Shown one piece after another: positions 1,414 through 42,871 of a stretch of 64,000 nucleotides of DNA. The notes beneath the pieces were generated by a model. That model was not told where the DNA came from, made no database searches, and saw nothing but the letters and a program-made list of their open reading frames with translations. Position 1 is the stretch's first letter. Every line of letters begins with the position of its first letter. This DNA comes from Rhodothermales bacterium (GTDB lineage: Bacteria > Bacteroidota > Rhodothermia > Rhodothermales > JANQRZ01), in the NCBI GenBank assembly GCA_039944855.1, contig JBDUXZ010000005.1, positions 564,676-628,675 on the forward strand, written 5' to 3'. The position numbers and the translations under genes were made by a program.

Positions 1414-4176
1414 TCAATCGAGGTCGAGCGCGGCGTCGCCGGGTCGTCCCCATGCCTCGTAGAGCGCCGCGAGGGCTTCGCGCGTTTCGCGGAGGTGAGG
1501 GCTGCCCGGTCCGTAACGGGCCTCCCGAAGCCGGAGCGCCTCCCCCAAGAGCTGCTCTGCTTCCTCGTACTGCCCGCGAGCCGTCGCCGCACGACCGAGC
1601 CCTTCGAGCGCGGCGGCCAGCCCCATCGGGTCGGTGTCGGTGGTCCGGCGCAGGGGAGCGAGGGCGGCGCGGAGGAGGGCGTCGGCCTCGTCGTAGCGGC
1701 GCTGCGCGATGAGGGCTTCGCCGATGCGGACGGACCCCGCCGCGAGCTTCGGGTGGTCGGCCTCGTGCAACGCGGCGTCGATCGCATGGCCTTCGCGGTA
1801 GGCGCGCTCGGCGCCTCGGGCGTCGCCGCGGGCCAGGAGCACGTCGCCTAGAGCGCTCAGCATGTTGGCGACGCGGGGGTGGGTCTCGCCGTGGTGGCGC
1901 CGCGCGGTCGCGAGCGCCTCACGCTGGAGGACGAGGGCCGTGTCGAGGCGGCCCTGCTCGCGGGCTACGCGGACGAGGTGGCTGAGCGCGCTGGCGGTGT
2001 GGGGGTGGTCCTCCCGCTGCCAGACGGCGAGGGCCTCCCGGAGCAGCGGCTCGGCCTCGCCGTAGCGGGCCTGGTCGACGAGGACGGCGCCGAGGTTGCT
2101 CGCCACGCTCGCCACACCCATGTCGCCGTCGCCGCCGAGCGCCCGCTCCATCGCGAGCGCGTCGCGGTAGTAGGCCTCCGCCTCGGCGTAGCGGGCGCGC
2201 CGTTTCTCGAGGAAGCCGAGGTCGTTGAGCGCCTTGGCGATGGTCGGGTGCGCGTCTCCGTAGATCCGGCGGTAGCCGGCGAGCGTGAGGACCGCGTAGC
2301 GGAGCGCCGCCTCCGTATCCCCTCGGGCGAAGGCGACGTGGCCGAGGTCGCGGAGGCCCGTGACGGTCTCCGTAGCGTCGGGGCCGAGCAGGGCGAGGTT
2401 GAGGGCGTAGCCCATCTTGTAGAGCGAGTCGGCCGCAGCGTAGTCGGCGAGGAAATAGCGGGTGCTGGCGGCGAGCACGAGCGCCGCCGCCAGGCCGACC
2501 GTGCGCTCTCCGTCCCGCTCGTAAAGGGCGAGGCTCTGGCGTCCGAGCGAGTCGGCGGTGGCGTAGTCGCCGCGCTGGACGTGGAGCCAGGCGAGGTCGT
2601 GGAGGCTCTCGGCCACGTCGAGCGCGGCGGGGCCGAGGGCGTCGCGGCGAACGGCGAGGGCGCGTTCGAGGAGGGGTTGCGCCCGGTCGTAGAGGCCGAG
2701 CCGGTAGTACACGTCGCCGAGGACGCGGAGCATCGCCGCCTGCACCTCGGGCTCGTCCGCCAACTCGGCGTCGACGCGCGCCGCGCCGCGGTCGAGGAGG
2801 TCGCGGGCGCGGAGCGTGTCGCCTCCGACCTCGGCGAAGGGGTTCGAGGCGCCGAAGAGGTCGGCGAGGAATGCCGAAACGCGCTCGGCCTTCCGCGCCT
2901 CGGTGAGCGCGCGGTCGCGCTCGGCCTGGAGGCGGACCGTGTAGAGCCCGGTGACGAGGGCGAGGACGAGGACGCCGAGGACGGCCGCGGCGATCCCCTG
3001 CCGGTGGCGGCGGGCGAACTTCCGCAGCCGGTAGCCCACGGAGTCCCGCCGCGCGGTGACAGGGAGCCCGGCGAGGTGCCGCTTGATGTCCTCGACGAAC
3101 GCTTCGGCGCTCGCGTACCGGCGTTCCGGTTCGGGCTGGAGCGCCTTGAGACAGACGACGTCGAGGTCGCCGCGTAGCCGGCGGGCGAGGCGCTTCGTCG
3201 TCGTCTGCCGCGCGAGGGCGGCCTCCTCGCTCGTCGCGTCGGCCTCGGTCACGGCCGTCGAGGGGCGGTCGGGCTCGCGCGTCGGGTCGGCGCTCGTGTC
3301 GGGGCGCTTGCCGGTGAGGAGCTCGAAGAGGACGACGCCGAGGCTGTACACGTCCGTGGCCGCCGTCGCCGGTCCGCCGGTGCGCTGCTCGGGGGCGGCG
3401 TACGCTGGCGTGAGCACACGGCGGCCCGTGACGGTGAGCGCGCCGCTCTCTTCGCCGGCCTCGTCGAGCGCCTTCGCAATGCCGAAGTCGAGGAGCTTGA
3501 CCGTGCCGTCCTCCGTGACGAGGATGTTCGACGGCTTGAGGTCGCGGTGGACGATGAACTGCTGGTGGGCGTGCTGCACGGCCCGGCCCACCTGCCCGAC
3601 GAGGCGGAGGCGGGCGTCGAGGCCGAGCCGCTCGCGGTCGCAGTACTCCGTCAGCGGCACGCCGTCCACGAGCTCCATCGCGAAGTACGGCGTGCCGTCA
3701 TCGGCCACGCCTGCGTCGTAGAGCCGGGCGATGTGGGGGTGCTCGAGCCGCGCCAGCATCCGGCGCTCGAGCTCGAAGCGCCGCCGTGCGGCCGGGTCGG
3801 CGAGGTCGCCCCGGACGACCTTGAGCGCGACCTGCCGGCCGACGTCCTCGCGCTCGGCGAGGTAGACGGTCCCCATCCCGCCGCGCCCGAGCAGGCGACG
3901 CAGACGGTACGGCCCGATGGGGCGGCCTTCGACGGCGTCGGGTTCCTCACCCTCTACCGCGTCGAGCGCCTCCTCCGTTGGCTCGTAGAGGCGGACGAGC
4001 GGCTCGTCGAGCAGGAACGCCGCCTCGTCGGTGTCGGCAGCGAGGTACGCCTCGACGGCGCGGCGGAGCTCGGCGTCGTCGCAGGCGGCGTCGAGGAAGC
4101 CGGCCCGCGTCTCGGAGGGGTGCTCCAAAGCGGCGAAGAAGAGGTGCTGGATGCGGTCGAGGCGGTCGGCGTCCAT
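1414..4176 (-). CDS. Membrane-anchored Ser/Thr protein kinase with C-terminal TPR sensor region
   Basis: 920 residues. The N-terminal half is a Hanks-type kinase of the PknB group: glycine loop GRGGMGTVYLAE (about 97-108), lysine in ALKV (119), catalytic loop HRDLKPSNIL (about 210-219), DFG (230-232) and APEQ (261-264) are all present, so it should be active. One hydrophobic segment (about 394-414) separates the cytoplasmic kinase from about 500 residues of tandem TPRs (for example RRDALGPAALDVAESLHDLA), which would be periplasmic and could bind peptides or partners. The gene follows the ECF sigma factor gene by 64 bases on the same strand. Kinase-TPR proteins next to ECF sigma factors are a recurrent arrangement in Bacteroidota, Acidobacteriota and Planctomycetota, where the kinase is thought to control the sigma factor. 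That link is inferred here. Confidence 0.93.
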   Translation of the reverse strand: MDADRLDRIQHLFFAALEHPSETRAGFLDAACDDAELRRAVEAYLAADTDEAAFLLDEPLVRLYEPTEEALDAVEGEEPDAVEGRPIGPYRLRRLLGRGGMGTVYLAEREDVGRQVALKVVRGDLADPAARRRFELERRMLARLEHPHIARLYDAGVADDGTPYFAMELVDGVPLTEYCDRERLGLDARLRLVGQVGRAVQHAHQQFIVHRDLKPSNILVTEDGTVKLLDFGIAKALDEAGEESGALTVTGRRVLTPAYAAPEQRTGGPATAATDVYSLGVVLFELLTGKRPDTSADPTREPDRPSTAVTEADATSEEAALARQTTTKRLARRLRGDLDVVCLKALQPEPERRYASAEAFVEDIKRHLAGLPVTARRDSVGYRLRKFARRHRQGIAAAVLGVLVLALVTGLYTVRLQAERDRALTEARKAERVSAFLADLFGASNPFAEVGGDTLRARDLLDRGAARVDAELADEPEVQAAMLRVLGDVYYRLGLYDRAQPLLERALAVRRDALGPAALDVAESLHDLAWLHVQRGDYATADSLGRQSLALYERDGERTVGLAAALVLAASTRYFLADYAAADSLYKMGYALNLALLGPDATETVTGLRDLGHVAFARGDTEAALRYAVLTLAGYRRIYGDAHPTIAKALNDLGFLEKRRARYAEAEAYYRDALAMERALGGDGDMGVASVASNLGAVLVDQARYGEAEPLLREALAVWQREDHPHTASALSHLVRVAREQGRLDTALVLQREALATARRHHGETHPRVANMLSALGDVLLARGDARGAERAYREGHAIDAALHEADHPKLAAGSVRIGEALIAQRRYDEADALLRAALAPLRRTTDTDPMGLAAALEGLGRAATARGQYEEAEQLLGEALRLREARYGPGSPHLRETREALAALYEAWGRPGDAALDLD

Positions 4177-4240
4177 CGCGTGACGTGCTCGGAGAACAGG
4201 AGACTGTACGAGGGATAGCGCGAAACGGGCGGGGCCGGAG

Positions 4241-31176: not shown

Positions 31177-32064
31177 ATGCTCGAACCTGACCGCATCCTC
31201 GGCACCCTCCTCGGCACCGCCGTCGGCGACGCCCTCGGCATGCCCATCGACGGGCTCAGCCACCAGAACGTCCGCACGTACTACAAAGGCATCAAAGCCT
31301 ACCGCGCCGACGAGCACCGTCGCGACCTCGGCGCCGGGCAGTGGACCGGACTAACGCAACGCACGTTCGCCCTCGCCCATGCGCTACGCCGATCCGACGG
31401 TAGCGACGCAGCATGCTGCGTCTCTACGCCAGCGAGGAGGCGGTGGCAAGAGTCGAGCGCGCCGACGGCCACAGCGGCCGCATCGGCAGCCCCGCTCGGT
31501 GTATGGTGGGCAGGGAATGGCATGACGAAGGAGGAAGCCTTCGATACGAGCACGACCCTGTTTGCCGGGACGAGCGAGCACCCGGCGGCGCTCGCGGCAG
31601 CGTTCGGGCAGGCCTCTGCTGTCCGCGCGCTACTCACGCACACGCCCGACGATCTCGACGGACCCGCGTTCTTCCGAACCGTCACCGACGCGACGCGGTG
31701 GGCGGAGGATCAACTCGACAGCGGGCACGTCGTCTCCGACCGCCTCCGCCTGCTCGCTGGCCACCTCGACGATTTCCCGCTCGACCTGCAAGACCTCTGC
31801 GCCGGCACCGGCCCGGCGGCCGACGAGGCGTGGCCCTTCGCCGTGGCGATGGTCGCCCGCAACCCGCTTCTGCTCGAAGCGACGCTGTTGCCCGCGATCA
31901 ATGTCGGCGGGGCGGCGAGTGCCATCGGTGCGCTCGTCGGGTCGCTCGTCGGGGCGCTGCACGGGTGGGCGGCGTTCCCGGCGTGGGCGCGCGAAGGACT
32001 CGAAGACGTGGAGCGGTTGGAGGCCGAGGCCCGGGCTTTCGCTGGCGCGTTGTCGTCACGGTAG
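31177..32064 (+). CDS. Degenerate ADP-ribosylglycohydrolase family protein carrying a palindrome insertion
   Basis: 295 residues. The N-terminus (ILGTLLGTAVGDALGMPIDG) and helices such as APLGVWWAGNGMTKEEAFD and EAWPFAVAMVARNP place it in the ADP-ribosyl-GH family. The two metal-binding motifs are changed: the TDDT position reads WTGLTQRT and the GGDTDT position reads VGGAASAIGAL. Without these aspartates it probably does not hydrolyse ADP-ribose; it may bind it. Residues 75-85 (GSDAACCVSTP) are encoded by a 28-bp palindrome at 31400-31427. The stop TAG at 32062-32064 lies inside a second copy of the palindrome, so the C-terminus was probably set by its arrival. Start ATG 31177 precedes the conserved core. 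Divergent from ccmB. Confidence 0.8.
   Translation: MLEPDRILGTLLGTAVGDALGMPIDGLSHQNVRTYYKGIKAYRADEHRRDLGAGQWTGLTQRTFALAHALRRSDGSDAACCVSTPARRRWQESSAPTATAAASAAPLGVWWAGNGMTKEEAFDTSTTLFAGTSEHPAALAAAFGQASAVRALLTHTPDDLDGPAFFRTVTDATRWAEDQLDSGHVVSDRLRLLAGHLDDFPLDLQDLCAGTGPAADEAWPFAVAMVARNPLLLEATLLPAINVGGAASAIGALVGSLVGALHGWAAFPAWAREGLEDVERLEAEARAFAGALSSR
31400..31427. repeat. 28-bp GTAG palindrome (copy 2), inside a coding region
   Basis: GTAGCGACGCAGCA and its partner TGCTGCGTCTCTAC pair over 14 positions with one mismatch. It is read in frame in the ADP-ribosylglycohydrolase gene and adds a CysCys-containing peptide. Confidence 0.85.
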
Positions 32065-32088
32065 AGACGCAACATGTTGCGTCTCTAC
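32061..32088. repeat. 28-bp GTAG palindrome (copy 3), supplies a stop codon
   Basis: GTAGAGACGCAACA followed by its exact reverse complement: a perfect 28-bp palindrome. Bases 2-4 are the TAG stop of the ADP-ribosylglycohydrolase gene. Confidence 0.9.
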
Positions 32089-32140: not shown

Positions 32141-32169
32141 GTAGAGGCGCCCCGGCGGGGCGTCTCTAC
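32141..32169. repeat. 29-bp GTAG palindrome (copy 4)
   Basis: GTAGAGGCGCCCCG pairs with CGGGGCGTCTCTAC (one G-U pair) around a single central G. It lies between the stops of the ADP-ribosylglycohydrolase (plus) and murB (minus), 52 bases after copy 3, and may serve both as a terminator. Confidence 0.85.
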
Positions 32170-32191: not shown

Positions 32192-33271
32192 TTACCGCCG
32201 TTCGGCGTCGCGGTGGGCTTCGGGGTGGCCGCCGGGCGGGACGCCGTTTGTGAAGCCGTCCTCGTTCTCCCAGCCCTTGTGTGGCACGTCCGGGAGCGCG
32301 CCGAAGTCGCCGATGAAGCCGATCTCGGGTGAGAGCCGGTAGCCCTGCTCGCGCTCGACGGTTTTCTGCACGTACGCGATGAGGTGGCGCACGTCCGCCG
32401 CCGTCGCGCCGCCCGCGTTGATGAGGATGTTGGCGTGGCGGTGCGTCACCTCCGCCCCACCGAAGCGCGTCCCCTTCAGCCCAGTCCAGTCGATGAGCCG
32501 GCCCGCGCCGACGCCCTCGATCTTCTTGAAAATCGACCCCGCGCTCGGCTCGGTGTCGAGCGGAGGATGGCGCTCGTGCCGCCATGCGAGGTTCGCGGCC
32601 ATGATCTCGCGCATCCGTGTCTCATCACCCGGTTCGAGCTGGAACGTAGCCGAGAGCACGCGATCGGCGCGGTCGTGGAGGATGGAGTAGTCGTAGTCGA
32701 ACTTGAAGTAGTCGTGGTCGACGGTCTTGCGCTCGCCCTCGGCGGAGAGGATCTCGGCGGAGTGGACGACCTCCTCGATGAACATCGTCCGCTCGCGCTC
32801 GGGCGGCGGCGAGAGGAAGTGGAGGTTCTGCCACAGCGCGCCGCCGACGCTCGACGGAATCCCGACGTAGTGCTCCAGCCCCGACAGCCCCGCCGAGACG
32901 GCCTGCTCGATGAGGTCGGGGTAGACAATCGTCCCGCTCTCGGCCCAGACCCGCCCGGTGGCGCGGTCGATGCGGACGTGGTCGGCGCAGTTGCGGATCA
33001 CGAAGCCGCGGAAGCCGAGGTCGCCGACGAGGATGTTGGCGCCGAGCCCGAGGAGGAAGAACGGCATCTCCAGCTCACGGGCGAGGAGGAGCGCGTCGGC
33101 GAGTTCGTCGGCGGTGTGCGCTTCGTAGAAGAAGTCGGCCGGGCCGCCGATCTTGAACGTGGTGTACGGCGCGAGGACTTCGCCGGTGCGGAGGCGGTCG
33201 CCGAAGGCAGCGCGGAGGCGGTCGGCGTGAGCGGCGTAGGGCGAGGCAACGACGGGAGCGGGGAGGGGCAC
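32192..33271 (-). CDS. murB: UDP-N-acetylenolpyruvoylglucosamine reductase
   Basis: 359 residues if started at the GTG at 33271; a TTG at 33370 gives a Pro-rich extension of 33 residues, and neither has a ribosome site. The enzyme reduces UDP-GlcNAc-enolpyruvate to UDP-MurNAc with NADPH in peptidoglycan synthesis. Seen: APYTTFKIGGPADFFYEA, FAD-binding LGLGANILVGDLGFRGFVI, HYVGIPSSVGGALWQN, the catalytic Ser in PSAGSIFKKI and the C-terminal THRHANILINAGGATAADV. The loop after the FAD site carries an insert (about 150-180) with FDYDYS that is typical of type I proteins. Convergent with the preceding gene. Confidence 0.93.
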   Translation of the reverse strand: MPLPAPVVASPYAAHADRLRAAFGDRLRTGEVLAPYTTFKIGGPADFFYEAHTADELADALLLARELEMPFFLLGLGANILVGDLGFRGFVIRNCADHVRIDRATGRVWAESGTIVYPDLIEQAVSAGLSGLEHYVGIPSSVGGALWQNLHFLSPPPERERTMFIEEVVHSAEILSAEGERKTVDHDYFKFDYDYSILHDRADRVLSATFQLEPGDETRMREIMAANLAWRHERHPPLDTEPSAGSIFKKIEGVGAGRLIDWTGLKGTRFGGAEVTHRHANILINAGGATAADVRHLIAYVQKTVEREQGYRLSPEIGFIGDFGALPDVPHKGWENEDGFTNGVPPGGHPEAHRDAERR

Positions 33272-33466
33272 GGGGAGGGCGGTGGGTGAGGGGGCGGGTG
33301 GTACCGATAGGGGGGCGGGCTGTTCTCGGCCGGGCTGCCGAGCCGGGCCGCGTGAGGAGATTACGCACAATCCTCAAACGGCAGCAGGCGGCGGGGATAC
33401 GCTCGCATCTCACAAGGTCGTTACACGTATCCTACGCCCATCCACCCAGTCTGAGCGAGCATTCCT

Positions 33467-34301: not shown

Positions 34302-34640
34302 GTGCCCGCGCCGAGCCCCGACCGGAGCGACTTTTTCCAGCGCGTGTGGGACGTGGTCGCCGAGATCCCGCTCGGCCGGGTGACGACCTACGGCCACATC
34401 GCCGAGCACCTCGGCGCGAAGCGGTCGGCGCGGGTCGTGGGGTGGGCGATGAAGGCGGCGGCGGAGACGCCGCTGCCGTGCCACCGCGTCGTCAACCGGC
34501 GCGGCGCGCTCACCGGCCGTCTCCACTTCGAGACGCCGACGGTGATGGAGGAGCGCCTCCGCAGCGAGGGCGTCGCTTTCACCGACGAGGGCGAGGTCGA
34601 CCTCCGCCTCCACCTTTGGATTCCCGGCGAGGCGTCTTGA
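34302..34640 (+). CDS. MGMT-family alkyltransferase-like protein
   Basis: 112 residues from a GTG, one base after the prohibitin stop. It consists only of the C-terminal DNA-binding domain of O6-methylguanine methyltransferases: FFQRVWDVVAEIPLGRVTTYG, a helix-turn-helix with SARVVGWAMKAA, and the active site PLPCHRVVNRRG. The Cys of PCHRV is present, unlike alkyltransferase-like ATL proteins where it is Trp. Because the N-terminal domain is absent, it may act as a small alkyl-lesion sensor or methyltransferase. Why it is coupled to a prohibitin gene is unknown. Confidence 0.85.
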   Translation: MPAPSPDRSDFFQRVWDVVAEIPLGRVTTYGHIAEHLGAKRSARVVGWAMKAAAETPLPCHRVVNRRGALTGRLHFETPTVMEERLRSEGVAFTDEGEVDLRLHLWIPGEAS

Positions 34641-34647
34641 GCCGAAC

Positions 34648-34675
34648 GTAGAGACGCAACATGTTGCGTCTCCAT
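34648..34675. repeat. 28-bp GTAG palindrome (copy 5)
   Basis: GTAGAGACGCAACA is identical to copy 3; the other arm reads TGTTGCGTCTCCAT, so the CTAC foot has decayed to CCAT. It lies between the convergent MGMT-like gene and aroA and can fold as a terminator for both. Confidence 0.8.
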
Positions 34676-42843: not shown

Positions 42844-42871
42844 GTAGGGGCGAGGCTTGCCTCGCCCCTAC
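42844..42871. repeat. 28-bp GTAG palindrome (copy 7), likely terminator of sucD
   Basis: GTAGGGGCGAGGC pairs exactly with GCCTCGCCCCTAC (13 bp, loop TT). It begins 21 bases after the sucD stop and ends 20 bases before the engB ATG. Confidence 0.85.

Follow-up and report, generated by a model that had tools for sequence, protein, structure and literature searches.

The 64,000-nt stretch of Rhodothermales DNA analysed here (the window), part of a 4.6 Mb genome in 41 contigs, contains a gene that is overlapped twice by one family of short palindromes. This gene (31177-32064, forward strand) encodes a 295-residue ADP-ribosylglycohydrolase-like protein that matches PF03747 (ADP_ribosyl_GH) with E=3e-29 in a profile search. 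A 28-nt palindrome, copy 2 (31400-31427; GTAGCGACGCAGCATGCTGCGTCTCTAC), occupies codons 75-84, and copy 3 (32061-32088; GTAGAGACGCAACATGTTGCGTCTCTAC) covers the end of the gene, its TAG at 32062-32064 serving as the stop codon. Beyond copy 3 lies a further palindrome of another core type (32141-32169; CCCGGCGGG), the second half of a doublet at the convergent junction with murB (UDP-N-acetylmuramate dehydrogenase; 32192-33370, reverse strand; TIGR00179, E=2e-51). We place these palindromes among the repetitive extragenic palindromes (REPs).

Copies 2 and 3 are real, non-chance palindromes, as a reading of the sequence alone had already observed. The pattern of either copy was recovered in 0 of 100 dinucleotide shuffles, and copy 2 shows a single mismatch to the commonest form in the genome. 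Copy 2 lies wholly within the open frame and is read as GGT AGC GAC GCA GCA TGC TGC GTC TCT ACG, giving GSDAACCVST at residues 75-84. The unusual Cys-Cys noted earlier is genuine and is encoded by TGCTGC in the core of the palindrome; the proline with which the proposed GSDAACCVSTP ended belongs to the first codon past it. The observation that the gene's stop codon opens copy 3 likewise holds, the in-frame TAG lying inside the palindrome.

Comparison with orthologs drawn from relatives, the nearest of which are 60-66% identical to the window protein, gives a different picture of what copy 2 has done. Neither the GSDAACCVST stretch nor the palindrome is present in the ortholog alignment. The distance from the anchor TQ (residue 61) to the anchor APLG is 42 residues in the window protein and 45-77 in all 37 orthologs measured; without the REP it would be about 33 in the former. 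Because the protein is shorter here than every one of these orthologs, copy 2 brings no net extension, contrary to the proposal that it adds residues; it occupies the place of missing native sequence. The sequence-only reading had looked to orthologs lacking the insert and having a longer tail for support: the palindrome is indeed absent from them, but their site is longer rather than shorter and their tail mostly about equal in length.

The C-terminus tells a similar story. Past the HGW..FP anchor the tail measures 27 residues in the window protein and 24-42 in the orthologs. The window gene ends SSR-TAG, its nearest syntenic relative (L002) AESR-TAG, and a further ortholog (L033) EALG-TAG. 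In both of these the convergent murB stop overlaps or abuts the stop of the orthologous gene, leaving no intergenic gap (judged by eye in L033); in the window, 127 bp containing the REP doublet separate SSR-TAG from the murB stop. The TAG of copy 3 thus lies within a REP and yet at the former end of the gene, and the C-terminus has not been reshaped by it. The earlier idea of a donated stop that shaped the protein is contradicted by these tail lengths and by the SR-TAG ending of L002, and of the wider claim that the repeat family shaped the protein twice, the in-frame reading of mobile-type repeats survives while net addition and an altered C-terminus do not.

The protein into which copy 2 is translated is itself unusual. 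Its predicted structure has the ARH/DraG fold, with ADP-ribosylglycohydrolases closest, and the fold is modelled with confidence except in the region of the copy 2 residues, where confidence is low. Full-length orthologs carry the motifs WTDDT and GGDADT, whose acidic residues hold the active-site metal ions. The window protein has WTGLT and GGAASAI at these places. It resembles PF03747 members such as ARH3 and DraG in fold and in most of its sequence, differing from them and from active ADP-ribosylglycohydrolases in the loss of these metal-binding residues. Its nearest relatives show WTSLT/GGAAST, WTRHT/GGAASA and WTAHT/GGEASA instead. With the acidic residues gone, this branch of the family probably has no hydrolase activity. 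REP-free relatives share the loss, which therefore probably preceded the REP insertion. The degenerate state of the protein may explain why copy 2 was tolerated. The window gene and its relatives L002, L003 and L033 form a retained branch lacking the metal-binding motifs, a candidate pseudoenzyme lineage, and the gene adjoins murB in at least the window, L002 and L033 (the last by eye).

The palindromes belong to a sizeable family. Copies were counted by pattern searches and in about 70 stretches of the genome, with genes predicted for context by a simple codon-based caller. Exact matches to GTAGAGACGC-N6-10-GCGTCTCTAC number 26 in the genome, and a single arm is present 63 times on one strand and 64 times on the other. 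In the stretches examined, 83 copies were scored, one or two of which may be chance. Elements are 28-29 nt long; of the 166 element ends, 116 carry GTAG (read inward) and 20 GTAC, and both full feet (GTAG and CTAC) are present in 35 of the 83 copies, including copies 2 and 3, most others having one. The main cores are AGCATGCT, AACATGTT, GACATGTC and CCCGGCGGG. Doublets with a spacing of about 23-33 bp, mostly of two core types, account for several copies. Doublets of AGCATGCT and CCCGGCGGG at this spacing recur at L117, L119, L188, L193, L206 and L209, as in REPIN/BIME units.

Most copies (60 of 83) are intergenic, generally with a gene no more than tens of bases away. Thirteen apparently overlap a gene start, largely where an ATG in the core was taken as the start codon, and five overlap a stop codon. 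Five were scored as lying inside genes, of which copy 2 and a copy in a transposase gene are the two clear cases; another (L209:3095-3123) falls in a called gene (2721-4181) that may be a wrong call. Within the order, 8 of 114 genomes have perfect copies, their cores differing from genome to genome; the two nearest genomes have none. By eye, the 83 flanks showed no consistent direct repeat of the kind expected from target-site duplication by a miniature inverted-repeat transposable element, and a literature search with the literal repeat sequence returned only primers and unrelated papers. A second double-foot REP family is represented in the window by a perfect palindrome at 42844-42871 (GTAGGGGCGAGGCTTGCCTCGCCCCTAC); the pattern GTAGGGG-N13-15-CCCCTAC is present in 39 copies genome-wide.

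A search for Y1_Tnp domains identified, in genome G011 (contig C28), a match lying between two identical palindromes of the family, and this gene encodes a REP-associated tyrosine transposase (RAYT). Used as a query, the G011 protein yielded three RAYT matches in the genome of the window (G000). One of these genes (C15:16284-16832; L158:3716-4333) contains a member of the family, GTAGAGACGCAGCACACTGCGTCTCTAC, in frame between the HUH motif and the tyrosine helix, and another on contig C2 (L159:3112-3855) has a member of a second family, GTAGGGGCGACCGGCCGGTCGCCCCTAC, at the same in-frame place. That these two genes hold palindromes of different REP families fits two RAYT/REP pairs existing side by side. 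Across the order, a tagged palindrome lies in the segment between the HUH motif and the tyrosine helix in 31 of 61 RAYT frames, compared with 0 of 1220 codon-shuffled segments. The RAYT motifs DHVH, WQ and YIAENP agree with the table of Quentin et al. 2018 (PMC6006769). The structural model of the C15 protein has 4ER8, a RAYT bound to a REP hairpin, as its best match and places the REP-encoded residues in a low-confidence linker; a PDB sequence search with the RAYT gave no match. The sole PF01797 match in the genome of the window (C8) was considered as the transposase of the family and set aside, having no family palindromes around it.

Based on these observations, we suggest, with a probability of roughly 0.8, that copies 2 and 3 belong to the double-foot GTAG REPs and were dispersed by a RAYT, copy 2 having replaced a native loop and copy 3 having placed its TAG at the former gene end. 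They would be short non-autonomous palindromes, probably moved by a single-strand transposase of the TnpA_REP/RAYT subclass 2.4 type encoded in the genome. The feet, GTAG ... CTAC, leave two reading frames open with TAG in the third, and therefore an intragenic REP can be translated and a gene-end REP can supply a stop. Copy 2 sits in a degenerate ADP-ribosylglycohydrolase homolog, in a stretch that is not conserved, taking the place of native sequence without lengthening the protein and with a presumably near-neutral effect; copy 3 is half of a REP doublet at the murB junction, its TAG coinciding with the earlier end of the gene.

Several points weigh against this reading. Movement was not observed, and at 60-66% identity the nearest orthologs provide no close relative with an empty site. 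The RAYT scores 50.7 bits, below the curated cut-off of 80 for NF047646. With the GTAG tag at one end only in about half of the copies, "double foot" is not a uniform description, and at the copy 2 site a deletion has to be assumed in addition to an insertion. Insertion of the REP and loss of the native segment could have been a single event, such that REP movement in this order can act as a frame-keeping replacement; we consider this improbable, and know of no report of such an outcome.

Copy 2 might also have shifted the frame, with a second indel about 35 nt downstream restoring it and leaving about a dozen residues out of the ancestral frame. Codon usage favours frame 2 over approximately 31400-31480, and the frame-2 peptide YASEEAVARVERAD is similar to RYADEVARLDLRRPSAD of L002. 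Codon usage is unreliable here, however: over 31460-31496 it again favours frame 2, although the homologous reading (SAPTATAAASAAPLG) is plainly that of frame 0. In addition, RRDGEDSTAPT of L033 parallels the frame-0 RRRWQESSAPT of the window protein past copy 2. In shuffled-peptide tests with seven orthologs the summed z through the anchor was 12.1 in frame 0 against 2.2 in frame 2, with a modest margin before the anchor (4.6 versus 1.6), and in a frame-aware alignment with L002 two frameshifts gained only 3 points. A profile of all full-length orthologs set against the three frames was uninformative on the short-type loop. Following the frame-aware alignment and the shuffled-peptide tests, the compensated frameshift was dropped as quite unlikely; frame 0 after copy 2 is most likely ancestral, and a frameshift is not needed to account for it.

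Two further alternatives would give the palindromes a function, and we regard both as very unlikely. The in-frame element could be a selected module with a new protein function, for instance through its Cys-Cys pair, in the manner of Rickettsia palindromic elements (RPEs). It is open in frame, it brings the CC, and expression of RPE-tagged proteins is known (PMC3733652); the stretch it occupies is nevertheless non-conserved and modelled with low confidence, the metal-binding motifs of the host protein are gone in REP-free relatives too, and clearly intragenic copies number only 2 of 83. Alternatively, the family could consist of non-mobile regulatory signals (transcription terminators or mRNA-stability hairpins), with copy 2 arising by chance or decayed. 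Many copies do lie just past gene ends, several of them between convergent genes, and such roles have been ascribed to REPs generally (PMC3733652, PMC6006769), but the patchy presence, the genome-specific cores, the doublets, the association with RAYTs and the lack of an Rfam match argue against it. A regulatory by-role may exist beside mobility.

Dispersal of double-foot REPs by a RAYT, our preferred reading, places the family in a known context. TnpA_REP subclass 2.4 includes double-foot REPs with GT[AG]G feet and RAYT genes that contain a REP in frame (Quentin et al. 2018, PMC6006769), so we do not present the embedded REPs as new. As in that subclass, hosts are of Bacteroidetes type, elements of about 20-40 nt carry a GTAG foot with CTAC at the other end, copies are many, dispersed and mainly intergenic, and the cognate RAYT is flanked by REPs (G011 C28) or contains one (C15); the family differs in that about half of its copies have a single full GTAG foot, often with GTAC at the opposite end. 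The window gene and its genome are not described in the main text of that paper. GTAG-tagged REPs are located downstream of genes in most cases and inside ORFs in some, and flanking ORFs often take their TAG stop from a REP end (Di Nocera et al. 2013, PMC3733652). All three features recur here, with the difference that GTAG in that study is an unpaired single-end tag and is paired with CTAC in many of our copies. Intragenic REPs and REP-supplied TAG stops were therefore described in 2013, and the phenomenon is not new.

The parallel with RPEs that had been drawn from the sequence is fair as a statement of how the repeats work, both being palindromic repeats translated within proteins. RPE-4 and RPE-6 have also been treated as tagged REPs; they are CGTC-tagged and lack a dedicated transposase, and RPE-1 is longer (PMC3733652). 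The repeats described here have GTAG feet and 28 nt, are associated with RAYTs and are mostly intergenic, and are GTAG REPs rather than RPEs. With these observations the known double-foot REPs gain a further case, a Rhodothermales genome with its RAYT. They also illustrate the consequence of an intragenic REP for the encoded protein, which here seems slight: copy 2 occupies a part that is not conserved, in an enzyme that was degenerate already. An in-frame palindrome need not lengthen a protein and a REP-borne stop need not truncate it; ortholog lengths decide both.

A fourth copy of the family in the window (34648-34675; core AACATGTT) follows an ogt-like gene (34302-34640) and is separated from its stop by 8 bp. 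In the complete 3.4 Mb genome G004, only three GTAGGGG palindromes occur, in two RAYT genes and on the 5' side of a third (L226, L248, L249). RAYT-embedded REPs persist there in the absence of dispersed copies of the GTAGGGG pattern. Embedding as such is known; that embedded REPs survive in a genome lacking a dispersed population may merit study.
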